Shown: one piece after another, positions 2,096-21,806 of the stretch
How positions within the stretch are numbered: the stretch's first letter is position 1
How the letters are laid out: the number at the start of each line of letters is the position of its first letter
Assembly: GCF_000003605.2 (NCBI RefSeq)
Contig: NW_003156245.1
Span: 226,101-248,385 of the forward strand
Length of the DNA: 22,285 bases
DNA from: Saccoglossus kowalevskii
Lineage: Eukaryota > Hemichordata > Enteropneusta > Harrimaniidae
Direction of reading: 5' to 3'
Notes under the pieces: model-generated
What the model was told of the DNA's origin: nothing
The model's database searches: none
What the model saw: the letters and a program-made list of their open reading frames with translations, nothing else
Program-made: the position numbers and the translations under genes

Positions 2096-2361
2096 TTATA
2101 TACCACAGCTTTCTAATGGGTAACCAACATGACATATTTCCCAACGTATAGCAGGATTTGCCGTATAGCACCATGTTTGTATTTCGGCATCTGGGTTTCG
2201 ACAATAGTTGTGGTTGCCCAAACCAGTGTCTGGAAAGTTTGACGGAGTCCTTGTATGAGGATGTGGAGTTTGGACTGTCCATTTTTGACAAGTTTCACCG
2301 CTGATGGTAGTGTTCACTATTCCACGGTAGTCACTTGCATCTAGTTCTGTATAGCACTCAA
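2096..2361 (-). CDS. Gene B exon 6: second kringle domain and stop
   Basis: An acceptor after a run of 16 T (minus strand) opens in phase 1. The exon encodes a full kringle: all six cysteines (ECY, ETC, NYC, TWC, EIC, ESC), the DYRG motif and the HNYCRNPD core. At the second acidic position of the usual lysine-binding DxD motif it has Glu (PDAE). The frame ends at TAA three codons past the last cysteine (C, G, I, stop). A G|GTATAT donor at that point would make a symmetric 258-nt exon, the same length as the other gene B kringle exon, so a further downstream exon cannot be excluded. Confidence 0.92.
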
Positions 2362-5300
2362 CTAAAAAAAAAAAAAAAACTATGTCAATGAGAAAGAAAG
2401 AACACAAGAAAAAACACGTGCAACATATACCGTACTAATTGATTTATACTCCATGATAAAAGATGTTTCTTTAATTATTGAATATTTTGGATGTTCAACA
2501 ATATAACGATATTGACGACATTTGAACATTATAATGTCAATACTGAATGTTGTTTGATTCAATAAACAATGACACAATAAATAAAATATCAACTTTACAT
2601 TGTGTATGATGTTGAGTAGACGCATAATACAATACTATGCAGGATTACTATTAATAAATTGTTATGTGTTTGAATGTGACGCAATTTGAAGCAGTCCCAT
2701 TTTTTTACAAACAAATTTGCGACAAAAATAGTGCACTTACCCGGATCGGCTCCAGGCAAATTAGTAAATACATCCGATGTGATCATTGTTGTAGCTGTTG
2801 TCTCTGATATTGTGTCAATATATGTTTCCGTTGTTTGAATTGTGACAGTGGTAGCTTCCGTTGTTCCCATAGTGGCACTACTTACTTCCGTTGTTACCAT
2901 ACTGTGAGTAGTTTCTTCCACTGTTTTTATAGTATGAGTAGATGGTCCTGCTGTTTTTATAGTAGTAGTGGCTGTTTCCGTTGTTCCCATAGTGATAAAA
3001 GTTGCTTCCGTTGTTCCCATAGTGATATAAGTTGCTTCTGCTGTTTCCTTAGTGTCAGTAGTTGCTTCCAATTTTTCCATAGTATGAGGAGATGCTTCCG
3101 TTGTTCCCATAGTAGCAGTTGTTGCTTCTGTTGTTCCCATATTGACAGTAGTTGCTTCCACCGCGTCCAAAAAGATAACAGGTGTTTCCGTTGTTCCCAT
3201 AGTGATAGTAGTTGCTTCCATGGTTCCAACAATTGCAGACGTTACTTCCGATGTTTCTAGAGTGGGAACAGTTGCGTCTGTGACATTTGTTGCTTCCACT
3301 GTTTCCATTGTGGTTAATCGTCCCGTTGTTTCCGTTGTGGTAAATAATGCTTTTGCCGTTTTAATTGTGGTAAAAATTGCTTCCGTACTGATTTCCGTGG
3401 TGCATGTTGATTCAGTTGGACTCTGCGTTGACATTTCTGGCATTCACACAAAAGAAGTGTGGTTAACTTAAATTGTCAAAATTTGTTTATACATTACTAT
3501 TCATACAATATATTGGCTGGCAATACGTGATTTCATTGAACATAATTTCACAAATTAAAATAGAAATGCAGTTTAAATGGCAGTAATGTTGTCATAAACC
3601 TCCGAATTCCAGTACTGATTTAGGTGAAGAAGAGCCAAAAAGCATAATTATCATTAACGATGAAACATTCTGACTAATATCATCATGATTCTATCAATGA
3701 TTTTTTTCCTTGTGGTGTGGTAGTTCTACTGATGTTACACGCATGAATTGCATAATAAACAAATAAATAAACTCTGTTTTATTATGTCATTATGTCATCA
3801 ACTTACCGAATATTCCCGGTGAAGTGGTACTTTTCGCACCTATACATGAAAATACGAACAATTATTTCTGTCGATTAGCTGTTATAATTAGTGTATTAAT
3901 ATATTTTCCTTATCCATTAAAAAAAGTTATATCACAAGCCAATGTTTTCAACAGTAATTAATATCTGTGACCATGTAATAGTATATTCAAAATGTTGTTT
4001 TGAATCAACAACTATTTATATAACCACCCAATCTATATCTTACCCTGCGCGGTCGCCGTACAATTTTATTGCAAAATTATCAAATCAACAAAGACCATAT
4101 CCATTGACTAATGCTGAGAAATACCGACATCCCGTTTTGTTTATTTAATCATTTGAAACAAAGATAATGATAAAACGAAAATTTATATTGGAAAAATGGT
4201 GTAATCCAATTTTCATTATGTAACGTCGCGCAATCAACAAATCTTGTAACATTCTAAAACAATTGCGCTATAAATTAGCTTTTTCCTTTCTTTTGTTGAT
4301 CGTTGATTTAGCTTATATAGTATAAGGTATTTATAAATATACACCTCCGTTGAACTATATGTTGAAACAAGGATTCACCCGAATATGAAGTAAATGAATA
4401 TGAGTTTATAAGTGCAATACTTATTACAGTTTTCACTAGGTTCTCCTATATCACAGTAATTCCAGCCATCAGAATGATTTATAAAGCACCAAGCTGTTTT
4501 ATCTCCGTCAGGATTTCTGCAATAGTTGTGGTCTCCGATGCCTCTGTGTGATTTGTTTTCTGACATTTGCCAGTCATATTGTTGCTCTTTATCGGTCCAT
4601 ACAGCACACACTTCGCCACTCACTGTCACTTTCACGAAACCACGGTAATCTCTTCCATCGGCCTTCTCATAACACTCTGTTATTGCTGAAATATATACAA
4701 TTTATATATAATCTCAAATGTATGTGCAGAGATATTATTGAAGGTTATTAACTGTTAATATATATTTACCTAATTTATTTTTCCGGGATACTAGCACTAT
4801 GATCATGCCCAATATAGCAATGGATAAGGCGACAGCAACTACACAAATTGATATTGATGTGAAATGAAACCACTTTTCCTATTGGTAAAACCAGAAAACA
4901 TGATAAGAATACTTAGGAATAATTGGATTTGTAAGGTATTTTTTTCATTACTCGCTCTAATATCAATGGCTATGATTTTCTGCTATCTTTAAAATTTTGT
5001 ATGTGTAAAACATAAATATAAAGACCATTCAGGGCCTATATATATGATAATATTACGATGAAAAGTGATTTTATTTCGATCAAAGATGGAGACGGGAAAT
5101 TAAAGCCAAAGGAATTATCAACATGTCTGTCTGCTTATCTACAGGCTTATCTTTTCTTATACTCATTTAATATATGATGTCATTTATGCTATGTCCTATA
5201 TTATGAATTGCTCTGATACACATATGTTATAAGAGGTCATTTGTTACATTATTATGGCCCTTATTTATACAGGGCCATTTGTATTATGCTCTTCTATTAT

Positions 5301-5436
5301 ACAGAGTCATATGTGTTTTTCTTTGTTGTACAAGGTAATTTATGCTATGCTTTTATATTATAAATGTTCATTTCTGTCGTGATATGTACTTCGCTATATG
5401 AACGCGTACAAGTAGCTTGCTCACCTTTACTGTCAT
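2096..5436 (-). CDS. Gene B: predicted type II membrane protein, kringle-mucin-kringle (six exons)
   Basis: Joined exons 5436-5425, 4878-4770, 4685-4428, 3839-3807, 3436-2741 and 2361-2096 give one continuous frame of 457 codons plus stop; after the phase-0 first junction, every junction is phase 1. Residue layout: tail 1-12, membrane segment about 13-34, kringle from 45 to Cys127, a short Ser/Thr linker to about 137, a Thr-rich repeat region about 138-369, and a second kringle to the C-terminus. Kringles are extracellular binding modules, so the C-terminal part should face outside. The flanks of the membrane segment are both basic (K4, K6 and R36, K37, K39), so charge alone does not decide topology. 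The product is probably a surface protein with a glycosylated stalk. It differs from plasminogen-type proteins in having no protease domain. The start exon is the weakest part of the model. The last exon could splice onward at a possible donor after 2104 instead of ending at 2096. Confidence 0.72.
2741..3436 (-). CDS. Gene B exon 5: Thr-rich repeat (mucin-like stalk)
   Basis: A 696-nt phase 1-1 exon between an acceptor ending GCCAG and a strong donor CCGG|GTAAGT. By hand count about 80 of roughly 232 residues are Thr. Much of it is a 10-residue repeat of the type EATTxTMGTT, encoded by a 30-bp minisatellite, with about 14 clear and a few decayed units. Glu at unit starts makes it acidic. There is a single Cys near its start. 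Repeats of this kind are typical O-glycosylation scaffolds. Long open frames on the opposite strand here are by-products of the 30-bp period. Confidence 0.88.
2835..3260. repeat. 30-bp coding minisatellite
   Basis: On the plus strand the unit resembles gttgcttccgttgttcccat followed by agtgatata-like bases, repeating every 30 bp with no frame-shifting indels. Copies near 2970-3040 and 3090-3210 are closest to each other, while the outer copies are more diverged. Confidence 0.9.
3807..3839 (-). CDS. Gene B exon 4: 33-nt Ser/Thr mini-exon
   Basis: The bases GTGCG...ATATTCG lie between an acceptor (TATAG) and a strong donor (GTAAGT). In phase 1 they read AKSTTSPGIF after the first two bases, matching the Ser/Thr character of the next exon. 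Its first two bases, GT, rebuild the last kringle cysteine (codon 127) with the T that ends exon 3. Confidence 0.75.
3840..4427 (-). other. Gene B intron 3, no exon seen
   Basis: AT-rich intron. A donor-like site near 4043-4048 on the minus strand was tested, but every frame upstream of it is closed. Confidence 0.6.
4428..4685 (-). CDS. Gene B exon 3: first kringle domain
   Basis: A 258-nt phase 1-1 exon. It carries DYRG, the core GDHNYCRNPDGD, and five complete cysteines plus a sixth completed across the intron (T|GT). The PDGD pair keeps both acidic positions of the lysine-binding site known from plasminogen kringles, and AWC supplies the aromatic residue beside them. The donor chosen, AACT|GTAATAAG, is the only nearby one in phase 1. 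A later GTATTG is phase 2 and does not fit the next exon. Confidence 0.93.
4770..4878 (-). CDS. Gene B exon 2: membrane segment
   Basis: A 109-nt exon, phase 0 in and phase 1 out. The translation begins EKWFHFTS and runs through a roughly 22-residue hydrophobic stretch (from ISICVVAVALS to IIVLV) followed by SRKNKL. A stop lies in frame immediately upstream, so a splice acceptor (AATAG) is needed. Its last G joins CA of exon 3 to make the Ala before ITECY. The stretch is long enough for a transmembrane helix and could serve as a signal anchor. Confidence 0.85.
4879..5424 (-). other. Gene B intron 1
   Basis: No exon is visible. The stretch at about 5170-5375 is a degenerate repeat, listed separately. 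Confidence 0.5.
5172..5375. repeat. Degenerate short tandem repeat, about 31-60 bp spacing
   Basis: Successive copies start with forms of gtcattt: gatgtcatttatgc (5172), ggtcatttgttac (about 5233), ggccatttgtattatgc (5271), gtcatatgtg (about 5305), gtaatttatgctatgc (about 5334) and gttcatttctg (about 5365). Copies are AT-rich and diverged. Confidence 0.5.
5425..5436 (-). CDS. Gene B exon 1 coding part (start codon)
   Basis: ATG ACA GTA AAG is followed directly by a near-ideal donor, GTGAGCAAG. It ends in phase 0, exactly the phase that exon 2 needs, giving MTVK-EKWFHF. The base at -3 is G. A short cytosolic tail before a signal anchor is common in type II membrane proteins. The 5' untranslated part continues upstream but its start is not defined, and no clear TATA box was seen. 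Confidence 0.6.
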
Positions 5437-8400
5437 TTCGTTGAACTTGTGTTTCGAAAAACCTGTCAAAAATACACAATATTTGTTTTAAAAATGCCAG
5501 CTATTGTTGTTTCACGCCAGATGGGACAATATTCGCTAATATCCTCGGCCACGGCAAATTTGGTGTTTGACATACTGTGTAAAATGTCTTCTGTTAGCAT
5601 ATTCTCTATGCAGCCGTGTTATATTCGTGTGAGCGTTATGCAGAATGATGTAAAAAATACAACATGTAGAAAAATTTTGTAATCTATGAGATTATGTACT
5701 TTTTACGTTATTGCTTGCGCTGTGTGTATTTTCGGAAGCATCTCCTGCAATATTCGATTCATTTTATTTAGAAATGATTTGTATTTGGTCATCATGTATT
5801 ATATTTGAATACATTGCAGTTGACGTATTTATTACCGTTGAAAACAAATATGTTATATGAAAAACATTCCAGATCCGGTATAATACACACACTAAATAAT
5901 CTACTGTTTGTTTGATAATATTGTTGGCTTGATTTGAACACTTTCGATCTTAGATACTATTGAACTAATTGTCGAGTATAAGCAAATTGATTTCCAAAAA
6001 AAAAAAAAAGATTTACAGACAGTGTTTTATTCATTGTATTGACACACAACAGTGTATGCTAAATATAGGAAAATATTCGCCGCCATTTTTCTAGCTGCAA
6101 ATATATTTGCAACGATGCCCAAACATGTGAAAGTGCAACAACGAAATGTGTCATCAATATGGTATCGTGTAGTTCCTTTTACATGCTACATTGCTAAATA
6201 CATGACTCAACATATACTTACTCACTCGTATTTTGATCACTCTTAGTTAGGGTCGCTGAAATCCGACGTCGGCTGTACGAATGTGTTTATCTCAACCTGA
6301 ATACTAGATGTATTGAAGATATTGAGGATGTATTGAGCGATGAATATATACGACCATGCAGGATGTATATATGTGTTGTTCATTGTCACATGTGAATCAA
6401 ACTATCATCCTTGCAAGATAAATTTCTGCTTATATTTTGAGAGAAGTTGCATACAAACAGCCATGCAATATACAGTAGTTGTTTGTTTTTCCGCTCGAGT
6501 TGTCCGGTTTCACCAACACGCCGCCCAGTTATTCAAAAGTATCGGATTATGTCTATATTTATGACTTGTCATATTGCCAGCAAACACGAATATTATAATT
6601 CGTTGTTTTTTAAGGTGAAAATTAAGCAATCAAGTAATATTCACAAAAATAAAATATCACGAGTTCAGTAAGCCGAAGTTGTACTCCAATATATGGCTTG
6701 TATTATGTTTATTACGACGTTTAAGGTGGACATACATGATTCCAATAGCTCGAAATTGTGAGGTTTAAAGGTCAAGCTTTTTTTTCAAGGCTAAATATGT
6801 ATTACCAAATACGACGACGAATTGTACAATGTACATATGATACACCGGAAAATAGAGGAATTTTATTTACCAATCTCTGAACTCTGAACAGTTTGACCCT
6901 ATTGTAACCTACTAAAATAATGCGAACATCAAATTACAAATGAATCATTGAGATTAAGTCGCATGAATATTTCTTCAGGGTGGACAAGAATCAATCTTGT
7001 CGATATGATTACTGTCATCATAATGAAAATATGTTGCTTTGTCACTGATCGGCGTATGTATTAGAAATGTATTCACATACATTTATGTGAAAGTGTAATA
7101 TAAATATACATGGTATTTTAAATTTGTATGTTAAGGACTAGTACATTCAAAAACACAATGATAGTTTACCTTGTTTATTTATTGTGAAAAAACATTTATA
7201 GTATTTGAATATTCAATTAAATGTGTCTCAGTTCCTCTCTGCATATATCTGTCCATTTATCGAAGCAACAGGGCAGGCATTTTGACATGCGCCCTCTATT
7301 GGCAGTTTGTGGTAAGTCGAACATGATAGTTGTTGCTTCAAATAAGGGGTGTTTTGTAAAGTATCTGTATTCGTATTTGTATTTGTATTTTTTGTTTGTG
7401 GATTTTAGTTGTGATAGTTTTTTTCCATTATGATTTTAATAATTTGATAGTGTATTTACGAAAATGTGAATTGTTTTGAAAAGCAATCAAGTGATAGTTT
7501 CTAACCCCCTAAGATCAAAATAGTTTTATTACATTAACACAAAATAACAACTCCATAACGGCTGAGACTGTTTGATTTGGTTAGACCTAATAAATATAAT
7601 CTCGCTGCATTTTGGCATTTTTTTTTTTTTTTATTAATTGCATTCTATAACTGATGCTAAATGTTAGGGGTCGAGAATAAATTTGCTCATGACCTGATAC
7701 ACATGACAAATTGCGTTGTAATTTCCCTTGATGGACAAGCCATCTCCGGTTCTACGTTATATTGTTTAATATCGCTTATCAACAGGTGGTAGCTTATGGT
7801 ATATACCACATACTTATGATAAAAATGACTGATATATAAGTACCTTTTCCCCGGACAAACGTTGTTTTATTACATACATTTATATATATACATCATATGC
7901 GATTTTGATAAATATGCACAATTAGGTTGCATGCTGCCATCTATGTTTCAACAGAGTCTATGCTGTGTAAATTTGATTCGTCATACGGGTAACGCCCTCA
8001 AAAATGAGCCCGACACTACATATTAAATAGACTAAATCAATTTCAAATTTATTTACTAAACCAGAAGTATAACAATAACGTAGCATGTAAAAGCTCTTAC
8101 TGAAATCCCAGACATACTGATATTACTATGCATCTCGTCAGGTACGTAGTGAAACTACTATCGTTGCTATCCAAAAAATATTAAAGTTCGACCTCAATTG
8201 ATCTCTAAGATAATTACTTTTCATAGCATAGATAATTTTGTTATGATAACTTAGTTTAGGTTATATTCTAATGTATTATTATATATAAACTTATGCAAGG
8301 TAATATGTGTAAGCCTTTTGGTATAAGATTTCCCAATCACCAACTTTTTAAATGATTCAGTATTCCTAATGTAAGTACATACTTTTTTATACTTTTTTAC

Positions 8401-9154: not shown

Positions 9155-9225
9155 TTAGGTTGCTGTCAAAGTTACAGGCACAGGAGTTGATGCTGCTAGT
9201 GGTGGTGGTGGCGTTGTACAGCCCG
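9155..9225 (-). CDS. Gene A last exon: CTLD 2 tail and stop
   Basis: An acceptor TTACAG opens in phase 1 to read PGCTTPPPPLAASTPV and ends at TAA (9157-9155). It parallels the tail exon after CTLD 1 (PGCTTPSPS), including the extra Cys just beyond the domain. It stops where the first tail exon splices onward. Confidence 0.82.
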
Positions 9226-12200
9226 CTGTAACGAAATGTTCACCACTTGTTAAAAAATATTTGTGAAAGCAGGTATCGACAGGGCTTCATCAAACTAGAA
9301 ATCATTAGTGTGATGTGCTCAAATTACTAATAAATGTACCATGTATTGATACCTCCCATCAATATAACTGAGAGCACTTACGGGTAGGTGTTTGGCATAA
9401 ATAACCACTTTTTCTATGGCAGTAATCATCGTCCCACTGGTAATTTTTATTCTTCCTAAAACAAAAATCATAATTTGATTAGTATTATTGATAATCTTTA
9501 CCTGCTAATGTCGCAATTATTATACTTCATGATTATGTCACCCAAGTTTCCGCTGTACAGGTAGACATATACAAATATTTTCTTGGGGGTTTCGTACGTA
9601 GCAGAGCAGCCGTACGACTCGGAAAATTTAACCCACAAGTGCTTTACGAGGAAACTAAAACTGTTTATCTTTAGCCAGTTACGCGAGACATGTGGTCTGC
9701 GCTTTCGAAATCTGTCAGCGAAACGTCAGCGACGCCTAACGAAATCAAAGAGTATTTCACGTAATTCAAAATATAATGAAGGTGTCCAGGTTAGCCAAGA
9801 TTCAAGCAGTGACATACGAAGCGTCACTGACAGCGCCCAAGTGGCGCTGGATGGTATTTCTAAAAAGAAGACATTCATCAAGCTGAACCTGCTAAAAAAT
9901 ATAAGTACAATATTGAATACAATATTATAGGTACAATAAAGTCTATCCTATCCCCACGAAGACGCCCTTGGAGTGTACAATACGCAGTATAGCGCCACAG
10001 TTCATGCTATATTTGGTTTAATACAAATGTACACCAGAACTAATGTGCAATGATTGTAAGAAATATTGTATGAAGTCGTATTCGCAATATTTAGGCTTTT
10101 AAGGCATTTTTCTTCTGAAGTAGTATGTAAAGAACATTTATTGTGCGTGTTAGTATCAAGCTTACATAATCTACTATATTAAAAAATCTGGATCATAATT
10201 TCAATTAGAATTTAAAATGAATGCACAGTGTAAAATATTTGGTAGTGTTTTTTTGTATTGTTAAGTTAAGGCGAAAGATTTTTAAAAGCAATATGACTTG
10301 TCTATTCGAGTATATTATATATGAGATTATTACATTTTATAAGATAATTTTCAAATCCGAATATAGTATTTATTGAACGTGCATACAATGCTGTTTATGT
10401 GACTTCATTGATAAAATGGGACTGTGCACAACTACTGGGCGATATGTGGCTGTGGTGTTCGTCAGGTATATTTAATTTAAGTAAAATTCCCGAAAAGTCA
10501 GAATTGTAAAGATATATGTTATGAATCAAACGTTTTGTTTACGCTTCTAGGTCACTGTATTGTTGTTATGAGCATAATTATTTTGAGCAAACGACATATA
10601 GTCAACAATGTATCGTAACATTTTGTTTAGATGACAAAATAGTCGATGGTATTTTTTTTTTCTTCATATCAGGTACATTTATCTCAATTTGTTCCCAGTG
10701 ATAAAATATTATGATAACTAGATTCAATTAATATGTTTATTAATTACACTTCTCACAACTATTTAAATTACACATAGGTGATAGAAAAAGTGTACATATA
10801 TTTTACCACATTTTCACGCAATCTTGACCATCGGGACTTTTCTTCGTAGCGTTACTCGGTTGATTTTTAGCCCAGTTTGTCCAAACAAAGTCTTCTCCAT
10901 TCAACCATTCATAGTTTCCTTCCACGTTTCGGTCATGTAGTCCAATCCAATATCCTTTCACATGACCATCAAAATTACCATTATTTAAAAAGTCGCGAAT
11001 TGCTCTTGACAGCGACCCTTTATTCACTATCGCTAATTCCATATTAAGGCTGATACAATGATCCATAGCGGTTTGCCACGTGACCTTCGCTGAAAATGCG
11101 TAATATGTTTGACATCCTACAGTTATAGACGGGGTACCTAAAATTGAATCATTTTGAATATAAATATAAATATTTACATAATCATGGAGTAAATCAATCA
11201 TAATCAATTTGTGTTCAACTCAATAAATTTTCCCAATTAATTCTCGATTTGTCAGCGTTGAGGTGTATTTCATTGCACTTACCAGCACATTTTGTGTGTT
11301 AAAATAAATGTTTCTTATTAGCAATTATAACTTTCTCGTCATGTGAAAATGCTCATTGGTGCAACATCTATATGTTTTTACCTGGCTCATGTGTCATGTG
11401 TTCTGCATCTGTTGTCGGCATTTGAGAAGTCATTGGATGCTCAGTTGTAGCTAGGGATTTGGAAAAAAAGGGTGTATTTAAGAATATCGTAAAGTAATAA
11501 CAAAGGCAATACGGCAATGGTATGAACGGACATACGGCACGCGATAAGATACTATAATTTCCGAGGGCATAACATTGCAATCTCATTTTTATAAACGGAA
11601 TAATATACATTTGTACATAGCACATAACTAGTTAGAAATAACAGTGCGAACTCTCAGGAAAAGAATTTACTGAGTGTGTGATTGATTGTTTGATATGATT
11701 GTTTTCTCCCGTATAAGTGATGTAATATTGTGTCATCAAATGGAGTTCTTTTGGTTGCTGATTAAACTAAGTTTTTTTTTTTCAAATTCTTCTTTTTTAA
11801 TGTGTCATGGAAGCTAACATGTAAATGGTGTGCAGTATTTTTATACTTGACTCGTGTGTTGCAAGCATGGGATAGTTAGGATAGTAAGTCATCTATTTAT
11901 ATTTAACTGATTTGCATTTGAATACGGCAGCTGTCTTCATGCATATTTGTGTCCATTCTACTCGATAATGGCAATTTAAAAAAATACACTTTATCTCATT
12001 TATTGTTCATACCTTGCCAAGTTGTAGCAGATTCAGTCGGCATATGCACTGTTTCCGTTGACTGTATTGTTGGTTGCGTCCTGAAAGCTGAAATAACAAC
12101 ATTTTATGAGTCTACTCAAATTTCATGTAGAATTAAGATTTGTGTTGCACACTAGAAGTGATTTGATTTAATTTAATTTGATGTTCTTGCGTCCGGCGAA

Positions 12201-15200
12201 TTATTGTAGATTAATTATGCAGTGTCGTATGTATGTCATTTTGTTCAATATTCATCCAATAAACTTATGCATGTATGTTGCTGGACATTAGTAACATAAC
12301 CTACATGATATTAATTTTATTGTCTGTTGATTGTCAAATCACTTCAGGGAGAATTTCAAGGAAACGTGTATGTAAATTTTGGATGTTGTATAAAAGTAAC
12401 ACATAATAGAATCGTAATTGTTTTTGTATTGTGCCATCATCTGCGACATCGCGTCATCTGCGTAGAGTCCACTGACAATAACCATATTGTTATGTGCAAG
12501 AATTTTATCTTTGCGTACTTCGAACATCCATTCATACATCAAAAAGAAACTTGCTAGTAGAGGCTTGAATGACTATGAGATGCTGTCAATTTCGGAATTT
12601 ATCAGATTTATAATTGGAAATTATGATCAGTATGCGAAACAGTGACTACAAATATGCACAAATAGATGCCACAAATTAAATTTATTTAAACAGAGTAGAA
12701 CAATGCCGATTCGTCTATTAGTCGAGACACAGAATAAATAGCTATATCAAGCTGCAGTCAGCGGTGACGCTGCAGATATCTTGTACTCAAAACGACAAGA
12801 AAGGTCAACTATCCCCAGATGAAATACGCATAGTTTGTTCAAGATGATGACAAAGCAGCTGATTCTGATTATAATGATTCTCGATAGTAGTGCTCGTTAA
12901 TGGTGATAATTAGGAAGACGTTGTCATACATTATGTAAGGCATAGTGATTGTATGTGTATATGATAGTAAAAAGTGAACGCAAGATTAATTTTTTCCATC
13001 AACAAGAAATTTACAGTACAAATAACGTTTTAATATACTACAGTAAACATAAAACAAATATTCAAATACAGGCGGCGCGTAATTCACCACAATAATTTTC
13101 TATGCCGTATCGTCTCAGACCATGTCTGCGGTCGTTTGTTCTATTATGTATGGTCTCTTACCTGTTGAAGTAGCTTTTCTTGTTGTTAGAATTGGTTCGG
13201 CGGATTGAAATTCGCTAGTAGCGGAATGCGTAGTAGTAGCTTTAGATCAAATTAATGTAGTATTATTGAAATAATGTATATAAAATAAATAAAAAAAATG
13301 TATTGAATGTGTTGACAGATTATTACGAATTACAGGTCTCACACATCAGAGCCATACTTTTTCACATGCATTTTTTTCATATATTACAATCTCGTTATTG
13401 TCGAGTTGTATAAGTGTCAGTTGTCGTAAAATATTATGGCAAGTGGCCATGTACTTATATCTGAAATATTGGTTATTAATTGAGATATTTATTAGCAAAC
13501 ATAAATAATATTAGTTTATAGCTTTTATCAATTTGAAATTATATATATTACATATGTCAATGATTCAATTCCCCCAAAAATTGCAGCAGTTTTTCTTGAT
13601 TTGAAATTCGGATCATATATTACGAAACGTACTTTAAAGTGAGGAATAGATACACCATTTTTTATGAATATAATATGAATCAATATAATATGCAATTAAT
13701 GTACTGTACTGTATAACGCTCCATGCAAGCAGAAATGAAATATTTCAACTGTGTCGCAAAAATTACCTTGTTTAGTAGTGATCTCTGCGGAAGTGGTTAG
13801 TATTTCCTCGGTGGTCGAGTCGGCTAATGTCGTCATTGGCTGTGTGGTTTCAACTAGATAGAGATAGAATAACACATTATTGGCTCTTTTATGTCTATAA
13901 CGCTTCCTCGTTGTATTTGTTTCTAGCACATTTCAACTGTTTCGCAAAAAATACCTTGTTCAGTAGAAATGATCTCAGCGGAAGTGGATAGTATTTCCTC
14001 GGTGGTCGAGTCGGCTAATGTCGTCACTGGCTGTGTGGTTTCAACTAGATAGAGTGAGAGTAAAACATATTATTCGCCTTTTTATGTCTAGAACACTTTT
14101 CCTTAGTATTTGTTTCTGGCATACTTCAACTGTTTCGCAAATATTACCTTGTTTAGTAGAAATGATCTCAGCGGAAGTGGCCAGTTTTTCTTCAGTAGTC
14201 GAGTCGGCTAATGTCGTCATTGGCTGTGTGGTTTCAACTAAATATAGATAGAATGACATATTATTCGCTCCTTTAAGTCTAGAACAATTATTCTTAGTAT
14301 TTGTTTCTAGCATATTTCAACTGTTTCGCAAATATTACCTTGTTTAGTAGAAATGATCTCAGCGGAAGTGGCCAGTTTTTCTTCAGTAGTCGAGTCGGCT
14401 AATGTCGTCACTGGCTGTGTGGTTTCAACTAAATATAGATAGAATGACATATTATTCGCTCCTTTATGTCTAGAACAATTATTCTTAGTATTTGTTTCTA
14501 GCATATTTCAACTGCTTCGCAAATATTACCTTGTTTAGTAGAAGTGAACTCAGCGGAAGTGGCCAGTATTTCCTCAGTGGTGGAGTCGGGTAATGTTGTC
14601 ACTAGCTGTGTGGTTTCAACTAAATAGAGATAAAATGACACATTAGCTCCTTTATGTCTAGAACACTTTTTCATAGTATTTGTTTCTAGAATATGTCAAC
14701 TGTTTTGCAAATATTACCTTGTTTAGCAGAAGTGGATTGTATTTCCTCGGTGGTCGGGTTGGCTAATGTAGTCACTGGCTGTGTGGTTTCAACTAAATAG
14801 AGATAGAATAACGTATTATGTGCTCTAGCACACTTTTTCCTAGTATTTGAGCTTTTCCTTGAATACGTTGTCGTAGTATTGTATAAACTTCACATTAAAT
14901 ATTATATCATTTGGTTCAAGTTAAAAATATGTTTTTGTACATGTGACAATACACTTTGTGCACAACCATAGTGTGTTTGCCATATTGTAAAACACTTCGT
15001 GCACACATGTTTCTAAACAATTTTAAAATCAATGTAGTTAGTGATTGGGGAATGACATTATGAGCATTTTATATTCTCTTGGGGATTTATTTTGAATGTC
15101 TCAACGTAGATGTTTCATAGATCATTTTGTATAAATTGGCAAAGAACTTCTATGAGAAGATGTTTTTTTTTAAATCTTCGAAAAATTTGCGTTCATTGAA

Positions 15201-18200
15201 CCCTTATATTATTCGGTAAAATTACAATTACTTGATTATATTTATAAGAAATTCTGGTATCAGATACTGAAAAATACATTTCTACCATTATTTACATTAC
15301 AGCACTTGTCAGTTTTCCTACCTGACCACTCTGTCGTGACGTGGAACGATGACGGTGATGGTGTTGTGCATCCCGCTTTAAAGAAACGGACAATCATGAT
15401 TGAGATACGGGCATTATGGAGTATATCACAATAAAATGCACGCTAATAGCTGTTTCTCACATCGTTGTTCTATATTAATATGTATGTATCTTAAGTAGGT
15501 TTAGGCATACTGTGCTCAATACTAGCATGGTTGATGTTGGACGTTTCATAATCAGCCCATTGAACAAAAATGCGACAAACCATGAATTATCGAAAAATAT
15601 AATAAGTGATAGTAATTTAAAATGTTTTAATTTGAAATATGTGATTGAATTGATAACATATGTAAAACATAGCGACATGGAATAACTAATTCAACTTACG
15701 GGTAGGTGTTTGGCATAGATAGCCTTTCTTTTTATGGCAGTAATCATCGTCCCACTGGTAATTTCTTCCTTTCCTAAAATAATAAATCACCTCACAACAA
15801 TATGTGTTTACTATCTTAATGCAACTTTAATGTGAATACGAGTGGCCATAGCCGTCTTGGAGTAGCATTAAAGCTTATTATTACACACAGGATTAGGTAT
15901 TTAAATATAAAGTAGGCAAACAATTGGCAGTGGAGTATGTTGATTTCGATTTGAAATGATTATAGCTATGGCTAGTACATAACAAATAATTTTTATCAAA
16001 TGTCATTTGTCAAAATTTAAAAAAATGTGTAGGCAACTTTTTCAAAAGTTATTGTAAAATACGCAATTATTTTACTTGTTTTCGTAACTTATATATTACA
16101 CATTTTCTATAAGAATAAACGTGTGACCTGACAAGGAAATAAGACAATAAATGTAGTATTCACCATATGTGGATACAATCTTGACCTTCTGGATCTTTCT
16201 TTTTAGAGTTGCTTGGTTGATTTTTAGCCCAGTTTGTCCAAATAAAGTCTTCGCCATTCAACCATTCATAGTTTCCTTCCACGTTTCGGTCATGTAGACC
16301 AATCCAATATCCTTTCACATGACCATCAAAATTACCATTATTTAAAAAGTCGCGAATTTCTCTCGAAACCGTCTGGGTTTGCAATGTTGCCATCGTCATA
16401 CCAAGTGCATCGCATCGATTAAAACCTGTTTGCCAGTCGACCTTATTTGAAAAGGCGTAGTACGTTTGACATCCTACTGTTATAGTTGGGGGACCTAACA
16501 TTAATAAGTAGAATAATGTGAATAATATGTGTATTTGTTTAGATGCTTACCTTTCAATGTATACAATGTATGTTGATAACGACGAGCGTCAATTACTGTT
16601 TTATTGCAGTATATTAGATTTGTTTTGAAAAGTTACTCTGTGCATGTAACGAATGCAATGTATTTTATATTAGAAAAACGTATGAAACAATTAGAGGGTT
16701 TCTTCATAATATTAGTTCAAATCATACGTCATCATTAATACAAAATGTTATAGCAATAAACATGATAATTTACTAAACGGCTTGAATTGCGAACATTGTT
16801 TATTTTTCATTTTTATGGTTTCATATTTAGGAGGGCGTTTTGTTACATGTGAGTTCGATGGTTTGAGGCTCGCTAGTTGTGGATTGTTCTTGGAAGGTGA
16901 CATGTACGTTAAATACGCTCGTGCATATTATTTTAATCATTAAATAGAAAATATGATACAAATATTTGAAGAATTTACATAAAGTGATGATAACAAATAC
17001 CAGAAATATTGTGACAAAATGCTTTAGGTAATTAATTGAAAATGTGTTACTTCTGCGTATACATTAACCACATTTCAAATATTTTATTGATATCATTAGA
17101 CTGTTTCCCAATCTGTTCGTTAATTTTTAGTTTCATGTTCTCTACATAATAGGGAAACATAGTAAATTAGTTTTATATAACCTGAATGATTTAGATGGAC
17201 AAATTCATTTATAAAAAACATTGTGAACTATTCAAACACGGAAACACAAATTACCTTGCTCGATGGTAGTTCTTATAATAACAGTGGATGGTATTGCTTC
17301 GGTACTTGAGTCGAACGGTGTGGTCACTGTTAGTGCAGTCCTATCTAAATACACGTAATAATAAGATGTATTAATTATTGACGTATAATATGGACGTTAT
17401 ATTATTTAATTTTCAATTGATTAAAATATAAAATATATGTCTATTTAATAACTATTCCACACTCAACAGATACTCACGTTTTTTTTCAATTTTTTTAAAG
17501 AAGCTACACTATCATAAAACTATTTAGTGTACTAAATCGTATCAATGGTGGTTCTTGTTTCTGATTGAACACCGTTTTTTAGTATGTGCGCTGTAATAAT
17601 GCTTACCTGGTATAGTGGTGTCGATGGTTGTTAGAACTGGTTTGCTTGTTTGCGATTTGCTAGTTGTGGGTTGTGTAGTAAAAGCTGATATTCAAATAAA
17701 ATTAACATATTATTAAGATATATGACAGAATATAACAATTTAGTTCATGAAAGTTTTACGAGATACGACTATAGACAGTTGTGTGTGACTATTGAAAAAC
17801 AAAAGGGAATAATATCTAAATTGACATAAATTTGACTGTTCCTTTACACGTACATGTTTGTCTACTTCTCAATAGTGCCATTGAAATGTCTTAAAACAAA
17901 GTCATAAACTAACTTTTGTTGTCAATAACTGAATTTGATAACATATTTCGCAATTAAATTTGCGATTAATCATATGATGGTAAAATAAAATCTTTGATTA
18001 ATTGATTGAATTAGAATAATTACAATCGTATATAAAGAAATAATTGATATGATTAATTTCGTAAATGACGTAATTCGTTATGTTTTAAGAATATATTGAA
18101 ATTGTGTTATTGCTGCATATACAGTAATCACATTTAACTATTTTATTTATATCATTATGCAGATTTCTAAGCTGCTTGTTAATATCTCGTTTTAATTCCC

Positions 18201-21200
18201 ATGTTTTGTATTTAATAGGGAAACAGTAAATTATTTAGTTAACTACAGACTGCAGTATTGGAGTGATTTAGATGGACACATTCATTTAATAATATCTTTG
18301 TAAATTATTCAAACACTGGCACACACATTACCTTGCTCGATAGTAGTTCTCTCAATCACAGTGGATGGTACTGCTTCGGTATTTGAGTTGAACGGTGTAG
18401 TCAATGTTAGCGTAGTCTTTTCTGAATACAAGATGTATTACTTATTGACGTATAATATGGACGTTATATTATTTAATTTTGTATTGGTTAAAATACAAAA
18501 CATATGTATCTTTGATTAGACTATTCCACACCCAAATACAGTACAAATAATCACGTTTTGTTTTGTTTTTTCGTTTTCAAAGACGCAAAATTATCATAAT
18601 ACTAATTAATGTACTACATCGTATTAATGGCGATACTTGTTTCTGATTGAACACTATTTTAGTATGTGCGCTGTAATAATTGATTACCTGGCATAGTGGT
18701 GTCGATGATTGTTAGATCTGGCTCGCTCGTTTGCGATTTGGTAGTTGCAGGTTGTGTAGTGAAAGCTGATATTAAGTAAAATTAACATATTATTACGATA
18801 TATGACAGAAAATAACAATTTAGTTTATGGAAGTGTTGCCAAATTGTGGTTGTACGAGATACGACTATATACACTTATGTACGATTATTTAAAACAAGTG
18901 AATAATGTCTACACTGACACTAATGTAACAGTTCTTTTACACGTATATGTTTGTCTACTTCTCAATACTTTCATTGAATAATGTCTTAAAATAAAGTCAT
19001 AAACTTTTGTTGTCAATAACTGAATTTATTAACGTATTATATTTGCGATTGATCATATTAATGGAAAAATAAAACGTTTGATTGATTGATTGATTGAATT
19101 AGAATAATTTATAATCGCATTGAAAGAAATGATTAATATGACTAATTTCGTAGATGACGTCATTCGTCATGTTTTAAGAAATTAATTGAATATGTGTTAT
19201 TTTTGCATATACATTAATCACATTTTAAATATTTTATTTATATCATTATGCAAGTTTCCTAAGCTGCTTGTTAATATCTCGTTTTAGTTTCAATGTTTTT
19301 GTATATAATCTGGAAACAGTAAATCATTTTGTTAACCACAGTATGCAGTATAAGAGTGATTTAGATCGACACTTTTATTTATTAATATCTTTGTTAATTA
19401 TTCAAACACTGGCACATAAATTACCTTGCTCGATAGTAGTGCTCTCAATCACAGTGGATGGTACTGCTTCGGTATTTGAGTCGAACGGTGTGGTCACTGT
19501 TAGTGTAGGTTTATCTAAATACATAAAATAATAATATGTATTACTTATTGACTTGTAATATGGACGTTATATTATTTAATTTTGTATCGATTAGACTATT
19601 CCACACTCAACAAATACTCACGTTTTTTTAAAGAAGCTAAATTATCATAGAACTAATTAGTGTACTAAATCGTATCAATGATGGTACTTGTTGCTGATTG
19701 AACACCATTTTTTATGATGTGCGCTGTAATAATTGCTTACCTGGTATAGTGGTGTCGGTGGTTGTTAGAAGTGGTTCGATCGTTTGCGATTTGCTAGCTG
19801 TAGGTTGTGTTGTAAAAGCTGATATTCAAATAAAATGTACATATTATTAAGATAAATGACAGAAAATAACAATTTAGTTTATGAAAGTTTTGTCAAATTG
19901 TGGTTGTACGAGTTACAACTATATAGATATTTATGTATGATTTTTTTTAAAAAAAGTGAATAATATCTAAATTGACACAAATGTAACAGTTCTTTTACAC
20001 ATATATGTTTGTATACTTCTAAATACTGTCATTTATAAATATCATTGTGAATTATTCAAACACTGGCACATAAATTACCTTGCTCGATAGTAGTTCTTTC
20101 AATCACAGTGGATGGTACTGCTTCGGTGTTTGAGTCGAACGGTGTGGTCACTGTTAGTGTAGTCTTATCTGAATACATGAGATAATAAGATGTATTACTT
20201 ATTGACATAAATATTATGGACGTTATATTTTTTATTTTTGTCTTGTTATACATATACATGTACAAATATCGTATTTGAAGAAATGATTGATATGATTAAT
20301 TTCCTAGATGACGTAATTTGCAATGAAAAGTACAAATAACAAACAAACCGTATTACGTTGAATAAAAATCACATATCAGGAATCGAATATGTAATATATT
20401 TACCTAGTTCCATATGAGTGGTCCCCGACACAGTTGTTTGTACTGATTCGGTACTAAAGTCGAGTGATGTTGTCACTGATTGTGTAGTTCGAACTAAATA
20501 TAAATTGTATAAATATAAAGTAATCATAACATTGCACGTCACACTGAGGCATACTATGGAATGTACTGGAAGCTTGCAGTATGAAAATTAGTTCTTGTAA
20601 ATTGTATAAGGCTATATTACCTGGGAAAGTTGTTCTTTTATAACTTGTTGGCAAATCCGTTTTAGTAGGAACAGTCGTGTGTGGTTTATTACTAGTAGTT
20701 GTTGTGTACTGCGTAGTTGAACCTGAGTCAATGTAATTAGAAAAAAATTATATTGCCATATACGAATGTATATATATATACAATTATTACAGAAATATAA
20801 ATACTCAATTTAAATATTACAGTGGTAAAACTAAAAAATAATAATAAGTAACAAATAAGGTTGTAAATGTTCATGCAGGGATATTAAGTATTTTTAAATG
20901 TGTGATTGAAGCTGGAACGGTTGACACCACATATGATTTCGATTAAAATTGAATTTCACAATTTGTACCACAATATGACTAACCGCTGACCTAAAAAATA
21001 TTAATGAATAATAATTTTACAGACTCTTTTAATATTTTATGTTTTTGAAAATTGGCCATTAATGAGATCCACCCAACTTAAATTTTCAATGTTTCGAATA
21101 CATGACATTTCAATCCATCAGTCACGTGACACGTTGATATTGAATATCATAATTTCATAAGACAATAAGCTCTCAACTGAAGTGCATATAATATATAAAG

Positions 21201-21806
21201 CCTAACGCAATCGTGTTCGGGATATCGAAAAATATATATTTATGGTGATGTAATGCAATAAAAAGTACACGTACCGCAGTTGCTATAAGGCAGCCCAACG
21301 TGACAGTACACCCACCCGATATGATGGAATGTGGTGTAGCACCAAGGCCTCATTTTACCATCTGGATTTCTACAATAGTTGTGGTCTCCAAGACCAGCAT
21401 GTGGGTAGTTTGAGGGTGTGAATGGGTGTTGATGGGGTGATTGCTCTGTCCATTTCTGACATGATACACCGTGATGCACCGTGTTTTTGATTCCCCTATA
21501 GTCGGCACCATTCGGCAGTCTATAGCATTCCGATGTAACTGTAATGATATTTACCAATTTGAAAACAAGTTAGTTTTAAAGGCAAACTGTAAAATAGCGT
21601 CGTTAATTATATAAATTGTGTTTGTATTACCCAACTAATAACAGCCAATTACTTAATGTTGTATTGTATATAATATATATATTTATGTTGCTGACTTTGA
21701 TTTGCAGTAGTTAACTCGTTGACATTTGTCGTTGCTTTTGGTCTTTCGGATGTTGTTTCTTGAGGACCTATATATGTATTTTCCACCGTGTACATGTATG
21801 TACTGT
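9155..21806 (-). CDS. Gene A: mosaic kringle / mucin-like / C-type lectin protein (about 26 exons, 5' end missing)
   Basis: The exons read into one continuous frame of about 945 codons. Order: Thr-rich leader exon, kringle, two Ser/Thr linkers, alternating alpha and beta linkers (seven exons), CTLD 1 with a PGCTTPSPS tail, six gamma linkers, three further linkers, CTLD 2 with a PGCTTPPPP tail, stop. All junctions are phase 1 except the phase 2 junction inside each CTLD. No initiator Met, signal peptide or membrane segment is visible, so the true start lies beyond 22285 or in an unrecognised exon. Kringles and CTLDs act outside the cell, and the Ser/Thr/Pro linkers are probably O-glycosylated stalks. 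As modelled the C-terminus is soluble, so the protein is either secreted or anchored at its unseen N-terminus, as proposed for gene B. I do not recognise a named orthologue. Which linkers are used in a given transcript is unknown. Confidence 0.75.
9382..9455 (-). CDS. Gene A: CTLD 2, C-terminal exon
   Basis: A 74-nt exon, phase 2 in and phase 1 out. It reads KNKNYQWDDDYCHRKSGYLC and then QTPT. It supplies the WDD triad at the place of the usual WND calcium-site motif and the last two domain cysteines. It is the same length as the matching exon of CTLD 1. Confidence 0.93.
9456..10806 (-). other. Intron inside CTLD 2 (1.35 kb)
   Basis: Much longer than the matching 390-nt intron in CTLD 1. It contains the plus-strand open frame listed next, which may mark an insertion. 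Confidence 0.6.
9565..9930 (+). other. Unidentified open frame inside a gene A intron
   Basis: The frame is open from just after a TAG at 9562 to TAG at 9928-9930. It has no ATG near its start (the first usable start-like codon is TTG at 9583), so at most it is an exon or fragment of something longer. The product is basic and Ser-rich, with short runs such as KRQRRLTKSKS and SQDSSSDIRS. Base composition is less AT-rich than the surrounding intron, and codon third positions vary as in coding DNA. I do not recognise a domain. It could be a retroposed gene fragment, a transposon remnant or chance. Confidence 0.3.
10807..11137 (-). CDS. Gene A: CTLD 2, main exon
   Basis: A 331-nt exon (phase 1 in, phase 2 out), bounded by TTTTAG and TG|GTAAAATA. 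It begins GTPSITVGCQTYYAF, has the helix Cys in DHC, and carries the hallmark WIGL followed by NYEWLNGEDFVWTNW, then NQPSN and GQDC. QPS sits where calcium- and sugar-binding lectins usually have EPN or QPD, so sugar binding is possible but not assured. The N-terminal half is clearly different from CTLD 1 (MELAIVNKGSLSRA against MTMATLQTQTVSRE), while the C-terminal half is almost the same. Confidence 0.95.
11382..11450 (-). CDS. Gene A: Ser/Thr linker exon before CTLD 2
   Basis: A 69-nt phase 1-1 exon between CCCTAG and G|GTAAAA. It reads TTEHPMTSQMPTTDAEHM and onward. It resembles the preceding linker exon in its MPT motif. Confidence 0.75.
11451..12012 (-). other. Gene A intron, nothing further seen
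   Basis: 562 nt, AT-rich, with a T run near 11772. No additional exon in the expected phase. Confidence 0.5.
12013..12087 (-). CDS. Gene A: Ser/Thr linker exon
   Basis: A 75-nt phase 1-1 exon between TTTCAG and G|GTATG. It reads RTQPTIQSTETVHMPTES and onward. The start resembles the beta-type exons (F-T-T-Q-P), and the remainder has diverged. Confidence 0.78.
12088..13161 (-). other. Gene A intron (1.07 kb), nothing supported
   Basis: Opposite-strand short open frames at 12.3-12.56 kb lack splice or domain support. An imperfect palindrome with two ctgcag boxes lies near 12752-12776. Confidence 0.5.
13162..13239 (-). CDS. Gene A: beta-type linker exon after the gamma array
   Basis: 78 nt, phase 1-1, donor CAACAG|GTAAGAG. 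It reads ATTTHSATSEFQSAEPILTT and onward. Its length equals the beta exons of the upstream array, and it shares their TTxxxTSxxQS...P.LTT pattern, so it is a dispersed member of the same exon family. Confidence 0.8.
13240..13766 (-). other. Gene A intron, nothing further seen
   Basis: AT-rich 527-nt intron between the gamma array and the isolated beta exon. Confidence 0.5.
13767..13853 (-). CDS. Gene A: gamma linker exon 6
   Basis: 87 nt, phase 1-1, one codon shorter than its neighbours (ITTKQG in place of IISTKQG). Otherwise it has the VETTQPMTTLADSTTEE pattern. Confidence 0.85.
13955..14044 (-). CDS. Gene A: gamma linker exon 5
   Basis: 90 nt, phase 1-1, VETTQPVTTLADSTTEE then ILSTSAEIIST. 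The donor is GTATTT instead of the GTAATA of its neighbours, so it may be spliced less efficiently. It ends STEQG where most copies have STKQG. Confidence 0.85.
14148..14237 (-). CDS. Gene A: gamma linker exon 4
   Basis: 90 nt, phase 1-1, VETTQPMTTLADSTTEEK then LATSAEIISTKQG. It differs from exon 3 of the array at one base, which changes Val to Met. About a third of the residues are Ser or Thr. Confidence 0.87.
14339..14428 (-). CDS. Gene A: gamma linker exon 3
   Basis: 90 nt, phase 1-1, VETTQPVTTLADSTTEEK then LATSAEIISTKQG. Flanking introns are nearly identical to those of gamma exon 4, pointing to a very recent duplication. Confidence 0.87.
14530..14619 (-). CDS. Gene A: gamma linker exon 2
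   Basis: 90 nt, phase 1-1, VETTQLVTTLPDSTTEE then ILATSAEFTSTKQG. Moderately diverged from exons 3 and 4. Confidence 0.86.
14718..14792 (-). CDS. Gene A: gamma linker exon 1
   Basis: 75 nt, phase 1-1, VETTQPVTTLANPTTEE then IQSTSAKQG. It is five codons shorter than the standard unit but still in frame; the most upstream and most diverged copy. Confidence 0.84.
14793..15321 (-). other. Gene A intron, nothing further seen
   Basis: 529 nt, AT-rich, between the CTLD 1 tail and the gamma array. The first bases resemble the gamma intron and then the similarity stops, marking the upstream edge of the array. Confidence 0.5.
15322..15375 (-). CDS. Gene A: CTLD 1 tail exon
   Basis: 54 nt, phase 1-1, between TTTAAAG and TCAG|GTAGG. 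It reads GCTTPSPSSFHVTTEWS. It contributes a Cys just after the CTLD and then a Ser/Thr/Pro linker into the gamma array. Confidence 0.82.
15376..15699 (-). other. Gene A intron, nothing further seen
   Basis: 324 nt. The open frame over 15475-15678 has no splice or domain support. Confidence 0.5.
15700..15773 (-). CDS. Gene A: CTLD 1, C-terminal exon
   Basis: 74 nt, phase 2 in and phase 1 out. It reads KGRNYQWDDDYCHKKKGYLC and then QTPT. The first G completes the Trp codon begun by TG at the end of the main CTLD exon. Confidence 0.94.
15774..16163 (-). other. Intron inside CTLD 1
   Basis: 390 nt at the same codon position and phase as the intron in CTLD 2, so both domains came from one two-exon ancestor. 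No other feature seen. Confidence 0.6.
16164..16494 (-). CDS. Gene A: CTLD 1, main exon
   Basis: 331 nt, phase 1 in and phase 2 out, bounded by GTTAG and TG|GTGAAT. It begins GPPTITVGCQTYYAF, has NRC in the first helix, then YWIGLHDRNVEGNYEWLNGE, NWAKNQPSN, and GQDC. The length is identical to the main exon of CTLD 2. QPS occupies the EPN/QPD position. Confidence 0.95.
16495..17254 (-). other. Gene A intron before CTLD 1
   Basis: 760 nt. Apart from the decayed beta-like segment listed next, it resembles the other long introns of the alpha/beta array in places, such as the tract around attttattgatatcatta near 17080. Confidence 0.5.
16846..16882 (-). pseudogene. Decayed beta-type exon remnant
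   Basis: The minus strand reads QSTTSEPQTIELT, close to the beta exons (TTQPTASKSQTIEPLLTT), and lies at the position where the alternating array predicts a beta exon. The usual TATCAG acceptor is gone and the 3' part is missing. A weak acceptor (CCAAG) and a donor-like GTAACA could still give a short phase 1-1 exon, so it may be dying rather than dead. Confidence 0.5.
17255..17344 (-). CDS. Gene A: alpha linker exon 4
   Basis: 90 nt, phase 1-1, acceptor ATTTAG, donor CAAG|GTAATT. It reads RTALTVTTPFDSSTEAIPST and then VIIRTTIEQG. Confidence 0.85.
17607..17684 (-). CDS. Gene A: beta linker exon 3
   Basis: 78 nt, phase 1-1, acceptor TATCAG, donor CCAG|GTAAGC. It reads FTTQPTTSKSQTSKPVLTTI and then DTTIPG. 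Confidence 0.85.
18332..18421 (-). CDS. Gene A: alpha linker exon 3
   Basis: 90 nt, phase 1-1, acceptor ATTCAG. It reads KTTLTLTTPFNSNTEAVPST and then VIERTTIEQG. The Asn for Asp change in TPFN sets it apart from the other copies. Confidence 0.85.
18688..18765 (-). CDS. Gene A: beta linker exon 2
   Basis: 78 nt, phase 1-1, donor CCAG|GTAATC. It reads FTTQPATTKSQTSEPDLTII and then DTTMPG. Confidence 0.85.
19076..19098. repeat. (GATT)n microsatellite
   Basis: About five tandem copies of gatt in the intron between alpha exon 2 and beta exon 2. The equivalent intron near 18000 has fewer copies, so the tract expanded after unit duplication. Confidence 0.75.
19425..19514 (-). CDS. Gene A: alpha linker exon 2
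   Basis: 90 nt, phase 1-1, acceptor ATTTAG. It reads KPTLTVTTPFDSNTEAVPST and then VIESTTIEQG. Confidence 0.85.
19741..19818 (-). CDS. Gene A: beta linker exon 1
   Basis: 78 nt, phase 1-1, acceptor TATCAG, donor CCAG|GTAAGC. It reads FTTQPTASKSQTIEPLLTTT and then DTTIPG. Its QTIEP motif is the closest match to the decayed remnant near 16.86 kb. Confidence 0.85.
20079..20168 (-). CDS. Gene A: alpha linker exon 1
   Basis: 90 nt, phase 1-1, acceptor ATTCAG. It reads KTTLTVTTPFDSNTEAVPST and then VIERTTIEQG. Confidence 0.85.
20404..20493 (-). CDS. Gene A: alpha/gamma-like linker exon
   Basis: 90 nt, phase 1-1, acceptor ATTTAG, donor CTAG|GTAAATA. It reads RTTQSVTTSLDFSTESVQTT and onward. It has the start of the gamma exons (TTQxVTT) and the centre of the alpha exons (STExxxxTV), and so links the two families. 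Confidence 0.83.
20621..20722 (-). CDS. Gene A: Thr-rich linker exon after the kringle
   Basis: 102 nt, phase 1-1, acceptor ACTCAG, donor CCAG|GTAATA. It reads STTQYTTTTSNKPHTTVPTK and onward to RTTFPG. Its TTxP and FPG ends are beta-like but it is eight codons longer. Confidence 0.82.
20723..21274 (-). other. Gene A intron, nothing further seen
   Basis: 552 nt, AT-rich, with a short (TA)n tract near 20768-20781. Confidence 0.5.
21275..21538 (-). CDS. Gene A: kringle exon
   Basis: 264 nt, phase 1-1, acceptor ATTACAG and donor TGCG|GTACGTG. It is a complete kringle with six cysteines (ECY, VSC, NYC, PWC, VYC, SNC), DYRG, and GDHNYCRNPDG. The residue after PDG is Lys (PDGK), so the second acidic residue of the classical lysine-binding motif is missing. 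The sequence SCQKWT with SPHQHPFTPSNYP is much closer to the second kringle of gene B than to its first. Confidence 0.95.
21696..21806 (-). CDS. Gene A: Thr-rich exon upstream of the kringle (tentative)
   Basis: A strong acceptor (CTATTTCAG) opens a phase 1 frame reading STYMYTVENTYIGPQETTSE and on through ERPKATTNVNELTTANQ. The only phase 1 donor that fits well by position is A|GTCAGC, which is weak, so the 3' edge is uncertain. It joins to the kringle as ...ANQ-I-TSECY. The acceptor shows that more exons lie upstream. Confidence 0.5.

Follow-up and report, generated by a model that had tools for sequence, protein, structure and literature searches.

A Saccoglossus kowalevskii locus in which kringle, serine/threonine-rich linker and C-type lectin-like exons are joined in symmetric phase 1

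Introduction

Do a kringle, a long series of short Ser/Thr-rich exons and two C-type lectin-like domains (CTLDs), all read from the minus strand of one stretch of Saccoglossus kowalevskii DNA, belong to a single gene, and how would the Ser/Thr-rich stalks between the domains have grown? We addressed this question in a window of 22,285 nt, by which we mean the whole stretch of DNA that was analysed, where a first-pass annotation had outlined a mosaic gene between positions 9155 and 21806. Shuffling of phase 1-1 exons, kringles included, is textbook knowledge: in the sections of the sources that treat class 1-1 modules, these are flanked by phase-1 introns, have lengths divisible by three and show domain borders that coincide with exon borders, and the kringle is named among them (PMC8001218, PMC3927616). 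The combination of a kringle with a CTLD is uncommon but on record. What is new at this locus is the presence of linker families in both stalks, a decayed linker exon, a near-identical core in the two CTLDs and an anchored neighbour with two kringles.

Results

Exon chain, frame and phases

The gene model that we obtained consists of 26 exons with GT-AG borders on the minus strand, running from 21806 to 9155 and joining into one frame of 946 codons that ends with TAA, contains no internal stop and is kept at every join. A lead-in exon is followed by the kringle K1, nine linkers, CTLD 1 with its tail, nine further linkers, CTLD 2 and a last exon with the stop codon. The first-pass annotation had read a kringle, at least 15 Ser/Thr linkers and two CTLDs in one frame, and the 18 linkers of the model bear this out; its two borders also hold, 9155 being the end of the last exon's stop codon and 21806 the first base of the first exon. 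The first of the 946 codons is split with an exon outside the window, and the 5' end of the gene likewise lies outside it. The lead-in (21696..21806, 111 nt, phase 1-1) is Ser/Thr-rich and has a weak donor, GTCAGC following AAA. The kringle exon K1 (21275..21538, 264 nt, phase 1-1) encodes six Cys and matches PF00051 with 85.3 bits against a cut-off of 34.3 (E 3.6e-24), which identifies it as a kringle; its best PDB sequence matches are plasminogen and HGF.

All introns are in phase 1, the exception being a phase 2 intron within each CTLD. K1 and all 20 linker-like exons (the 18 linkers, the lead-in and the CTLD 1 tail) are flanked by phase-1 introns and have lengths divisible by three, as class 1-1 modules do, and the picture of a mosaic of symmetric phase-1 exons is thus confirmed by exon phases and lengths. 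The 18 linkers that lie between domains measure 69-102 nt each; the range of 69 to 111 nt once given for such exons is too narrow, since the CTLD 1 tail has 54 nt. The proposal that each CTLD is one phase 1-1 exon had to be given up: each consists of a 331-nt phase 1-2 exon, a 74-nt phase 2-1 exon and a tail exon, and is 1-1 as a two-exon set (331 + 74 = 405 nt). The exons had also been called interchangeable. For the reading frame they are, as none of the 276 phase-1 exon joins creates a stop, but this follows from the fact that no exon end is T (20 G, 2 C and 1 A among 23).

We scanned for short Ser/Thr exons with an open frame, scoring their acceptors and donors, with thresholds that were set after a first list had been inspected. 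The minus strand of the gene region gave 17 such merged exons in phase 1, compared with 0 in one of the remaining phases and 1 in the other, and the plus strand of the region gave 0 in every phase. Over the whole window, phase 1 gave 18 matches on the minus strand and 1 on the plus strand, the one extra minus-strand match falling in the Ser/Thr exon of a neighbouring gene. Among 200 dinucleotide shuffles of the gene region, the phase 1 count averaged 0.105 and never exceeded 2. The opposite-strand and shuffle counts rule out the linkers as chance open frames. The 17 matches correspond, with exact borders, to 17 of the 20 linker-like exons of the model; the lead-in, the CTLD 1 tail and linker E1 fall below the thresholds and are missed. 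A search against Rfam gave no match at gathering scores.

Linker families and growth of the stalks

From 5' to 3', the first stalk is made of Lx (20621..20722, 102 nt), Ly (20404..20493, 90 nt), A1 (20079..20168, 90 nt), B1 (19741..19818, 78 nt), A2 (19425..19514, 90 nt), B2 (18688..18765, 78 nt), A3 (18332..18421, 90 nt), B3 (17607..17684, 78 nt) and A4 (17255..17344, 90 nt). The second is made of D1 (14718..14792, 75 nt), D2 (14530..14619, 90 nt), D3 (14339..14428, 90 nt), D4 (14148..14237, 90 nt), D5 (13955..14044, 90 nt), D6 (13767..13853, 87 nt), E1 (13162..13239, 78 nt), E2 (12013..12087, 75 nt) and E3 (11382..11450, 69 nt). The first stalk (17255-20722) has 262 residues and the second (11382-14792) 248 (266 with the tail exon), which makes them nearly equal in length although each is built of nine linkers from different copies. 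Ser and Thr together make up 0.41 and 0.38 of the two stalks, which have repeated exons and no Cys, and Pro makes up only 0.08 and 0.05; mucin-like proteins have a long, repeated, Cys-poor region that is rich in Ser, Thr and Pro and carries O-glycans, and the stalks may be of this type, although their proline is low for a mucin and O-glycosylation is a prediction.

DNA profiles sorted most linkers into two families. A profile of the A exons (nhmmer) recovered Ly (E 9.9e-14) and all six D exons, with E values from 2.7e-6 to 9.9e-14, and a profile of the D exons recovered Ly and all four A exons (E 1.6e-8 to 3.5e-13). The B exons were recovered by neither, though they share composition and splice borders with the A and D exons; their own profile recovered E1 (E 1.3e-7) and a decayed copy at 16902-16840 whose score is weak when taken alone (E 0.0052). 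Lx, E2 and E3 were matched by none of the A, B and D profiles and stand outside both families. Thus 15 of the 18 linkers were placed, 11 in the A/D family and four in the B family, and both families occur in both stalks. Identities follow the same division (A-D 0.60 and B-E1 0.64, as against A-B 0.46 and D-B 0.51). Within a stalk the identity is about 0.90 (A-A and D-D), and the contrast with 0.60 between A and D indicates that the stalks share ancestors and expanded separately. The two families on both sides and the order of the linkers suggest that linkers and a CTLD were probably copied as one cassette and that each stalk was expanded afterwards.

Growth is in part recent: a single nucleotide of 90 separates D3 from D4, and similarity reaches 98% between the introns D2-D3 and D3-D4, compared with 81-90% for other intron pairs. 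Loss has left its trace as well. The decayed B-type linker (16840..16902, minus strand) has neither AG nor GT at its expected borders and sits between A4 and CTLD 1, where the alternation of A and B predicts a B exon; the intron that holds it measures 760 nt and over its initial 236 nt can be aligned with the A2-B2 intron (74%, E 2e-40). Judged by these features, it is the mark of a past exon loss, a fossil of stalk shortening. The earlier proposal was that stalk length may change freely by exon skipping or unequal crossover; of this, a history of whole-exon gain and loss is supported by the near-identical tandem units and this decayed exon.

The two CTLDs and their near-identical core

CTLD 1 consists of a main exon (16164..16494, 331 nt, phase 1-2), a second exon (15700..15773, 74 nt, phase 2-1) and a tail exon (15322..15375, 54 nt); CTLD 2 has a main exon (10807..11137, 331 nt, phase 1-2), a second exon (9382..9455, 74 nt, phase 2-1) and, as its tail, the last exon of the gene (9155..9225), which reads PGCTTPPPP... 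and ends with the stop codon. The main exons alone match PF00059 with 32.5 bits (CTLD 1) and 41.1 bits (CTLD 2), the matches ending at positions 84 and 85 of 107. Joined over the phase 2 intron, the domains reach 50.2 and 58.9 bits against a cut-off of 22.6 and span positions 3-107 and 2-107, which identifies both as CTLDs; that the profile is completed to 107/107 is independent support for the splice to the 74-nt exon. Among PDB sequences, CTLD 1 is matched best by the macrophage mannose receptor, a yolk sac IgY receptor and Ly75. A Cys close to the start of each domain may pair with one encoded by its separate tail exon, both tails opening alike with PGCTTP. The introns inside the two CTLDs show no alignment beyond about 20 nt beside the second exon (blastn, E up to 1e-3). 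The intron of CTLD 2 (10806-9456) contains, on the plus strand, an open frame of 121 codons (9565-9930) that has no Pfam match.

Calcium-dependent sugar binding by CTLDs goes with the motif EPN or QPD, a Glu before the third Cys, and WND. At these positions both domains read QPS, QDC and WDD in a translation inspected by eye, so that, set against mannose-binding protein, both presumably lack most calcium-site residues, and classical calcium-dependent sugar binding by either is doubtful.

The two main exons (10807-11137 and 16164-16494) differ at 66 of 331 nt, and only three of the mismatches fall in a core of 144 nt, a clustering reached by none of 20000 permutations. Clustering over all sites could reflect protein constraint, and silent sites therefore matter. 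Strong constraint on the protein, in place of gene conversion, would fit the position of the core, which takes in WIGL and the long loop, where CTLDs are usually conserved. Nor are runs of silent codons more than moderately unusual when scanned alone with limits not fixed: runs with 0, 1, 2 and 3 differences were reached by 1996, 173, 27 and 156 of 20000 permutations. Against constraint, silent sites in the core are nearly unchanged. Where both exons encode the same residue, silent differences affect 2 of 41 core codons and 13 of the 33 others (Fisher p 3e-4, the limits of the core having been taken from the data tested). NG86 puts dS at 0.08 for the core (codons 46-92), at 0.67 and 0.91 for the two segments upstream of it and at 0.74 for the one downstream. 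With YN00, dS is lower for two flanks, at 0.53 in the first upstream segment and 0.37 in the downstream one, and there is no value for the core or the alpha segment. The segment directly upstream of the core keeps 11 of 30 residues. On balance we regard constraint as an unlikely explanation, and gene conversion limited to the exon core as a probable one.

Kringle K1

Lysine-binding kringles carry an Asp-x-Asp pair after NP. K1 reads NPDGK there, and the kringles K2 and K3 of the neighbouring gene read NPDGD and NPDAE. Compared with plasminogen, K1 presumably keeps only one of the two acidic lysine-site residues, which makes classical lysine binding by K1 doubtful. Relatives of K1 and CTLD 1 were also sought in contig collections that consist of prokaryotes and viruses and are therefore uninformative on animals. 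For CTLD 1 there were none among 36 stretches of the prokaryotic genome contigs nor among 6 of viral contigs; for K1, the viral contigs gave one match of 17 residues (L001). We dismissed this match as chance, as it lies in a frame of 286 codons, rests on the common string DGKMRPWC and by eye shows no other kringle feature.

The neighbouring gene

A second gene lies on the minus strand at 2104..5462 and encodes an anchor, two kringles and a one-exon Ser/Thr stalk. It begins with start and membrane anchor exons (5425-5462 and 4770-4878) and continues with kringle K2 (4428-4685), a 33-nt exon (3807-3839), a single Ser/Thr exon of 696 nt (2741-3436) and kringle K3 (2104-2361). The phases of the anchor exon, 0 on entry and 1 on exit, are those expected of an N-terminal exon, and we therefore treat the neighbour as a separate gene. 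K1 shares 56% identity with K3 over 85 residues and 43% with K2 over 86 residues. After K3, the frame may either reach a nearby stop or continue by splicing from a GTATAT donor.

One gene or two, and its state

Whether the kringle and the CTLDs belong together depends on what lies between them. On the minus strand, no ATG exon combined a hydrophobic start with a phase-1 donor (five did so on the plus strand, which served as a control), and hydrophobic stretches of 18 residues with a phase-1 donor were confined, on the minus strand of the whole window, to the neighbour's anchor at 4842-4770 (three on the plus strand). The ATG-based scan also misses the neighbour's own split start, and an unusual internal start can escape both scans. 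As the scans of the minus strand turned up neither a start exon nor a membrane exon with a phase-1 donor from 21275 to 9155, we favour a single gene that holds the kringle, the linkers and both CTLDs. Alternatively, the kringle and its linkers could form a gene of their own beside a separate CTLD gene, and the many AATAAA/ATTAAA words on the minus strand would make early polyadenylation possible. Against such a division stand the negative start and membrane scans and the occurrence of the same two linker families on both sides of CTLD 1; we consider it rather improbable.

The locus might also be a gene copy that is in decay or seldom expressed and has kept its open frames through recent duplication, and the coding behaviour of the linkers bears on this. 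The six D exons are more alike (0.896) than their intron flanks (0.828 and 0.783), their exon length changes are of 15 and 3 nt, and dS exceeds dN in five of six pairs of equal length, the sixth, D3-D4, being a single nonsynonymous change. The four A exons stand at 0.898 against flanks of 0.880 and 0.776, with dS above dN in all six pairs. The three B exons show no excess over introns (0.872 against 0.913 and 0.893), and dS exceeds dN in two of three pairs, with dN slightly above dS in B1-B2. From exon and flank identities and these pairs, constraint at the protein level seems to act on the D stalk, probably acts on the A exons and acts weakly or not at all on the B exons. That B exons evolve like their own introns and that one linker exon has decayed would suit a copy in decay. 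Against this stand an uninterrupted frame of 946 codons across 26 GT-AG exons and the excess of dS over dN in most D, A and B pairs and in all four CTLD segments (NG86), and we hold decay to be very unlikely.

Discussion

With exons, phases, frame and domain identities read directly from the DNA, and with most linkers homologous to one another, we think it probable that one gene encodes an extracellular mosaic of a kringle, a stalk of about 262 residues, CTLD 1 with its tail, a stalk of about 248 residues and a C-terminal CTLD 2, and that it grew by nested duplication. Linker exons and a CTLD would first have been copied together as a cassette; each stalk would then have gained exons by unequal exchange between phase-1 introns, at least one linker would have been lost by decay of its splice sites, and the CTLD cores would have been kept alike by gene conversion. 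As no membrane segment was found after the kringle, the protein would be secreted or held by an N-terminal anchor, as in the neighbour. The stalks would be O-glycosylated and stiff and would keep the heads off the surface, and the two similar heads could bind in tandem, gaining avidity, in adhesion or recognition. The likeliest role of the product is in adhesion or recognition outside the cell, with two heads in tandem on stalks that would be glycosylated. Much of the modular history of such a protein can be followed at one locus, from a probable duplicated cassette and exon-by-exon growth to the fossil of a lost exon and patchy homogenisation of the heads.

A bolder proposal is that of a two-headed receptor whose reach is tuned by a copy number of stalk exons that varies between individuals, with conversion keeping the binding cores alike. 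We put it forward tentatively, as a doubtful but consequential idea: if stalk-exon copy number does vary between individuals, the reach of an extracellular binding protein would be a measurable genetic trait, and a polymorphism in stalk length by whole exons would contrast with repeats inside one exon.

Among known systems, class 1-1 animal extracellular proteins, as the sections cited above describe them, resemble the present gene in having modules flanked by phase-1 introns and lengths divisible by three; the modules here differ in being mostly short Ser/Thr linkers repeated exon by exon and not folded domains. The mannose receptor family provides the best PDB sequence matches of CTLD 1 and, as here, has several CTLDs per chain. 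Its vertebrate members have a head of cysteine-rich and FN2 domains and are not known to have a kringle, and the CTLDs of the present gene are, unlike theirs, spaced by long stalks. Type II receptors of the DC-SIGN type also carry a C-terminal CTLD on an extended, repeated stalk. Their necks are helical repeats coded in one exon, whereas the present gene has Ser/Thr stalks of many exons, two CTLDs and a kringle, and an N-terminal anchor is only a predicted possibility.

In a limited look at the literature, we found no report of a kringle, a Ser/Thr stalk and a CTLD in one protein. Two records nevertheless soften the earlier remark that the combination is unusual. A protein of limpet adhesive mucus, P-vulgata_14, is predicted to hold a kringle and a C-type lectin-like domain together, along with an astacin peptidase domain, ApeC, CUB, two sushi domains and ShKT, and no Ser/Thr stalk is reported in the text on this protein (PMC7333891). 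In Manila clam, all 13 members of the 'mannose receptor' family RpMR1-13 have CTLDs, 1 to 14 each, in genes of 2 to 60 exons, and a kringle is listed among the domains of the family (PMC12321717). By this text at least one member should hold both domains, and no Ser/Thr stalk is named in the section on the family. Other sources are less direct as far as their relevant passages go: kringle and Lectin_C occur in different genes in one (PMC11788884); in another both are among the domains of the astacin family, with co-occurrence in one protein unstated there (PMC9848320); and a description of bivalve-specific CTLD architectures does not contain the word 'kringle' in its available text (PMC10140915).

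The neighbour, with related kringles, builds its Ser/Thr stalk in another way, by repeats of about 10 residues (30-bp period) inside a single exon. It may be compared with Tmed-krg1, a protein of flatworm anchor cells that is membrane-held and has six kringles, no CTLD being named for it in the text concerned (PMC9229212). A tandem array (1-591) of a 177-bp unit, in 3.3 copies with 92% matches, begins at the edge of the window. Several repeat segments at 1123-1806 occur in two direct copies about 390-407 nt apart and may belong to a mobile element; between the direct copies lies an inverted pair of 51 nt (1379-1429 and 1474-1524).
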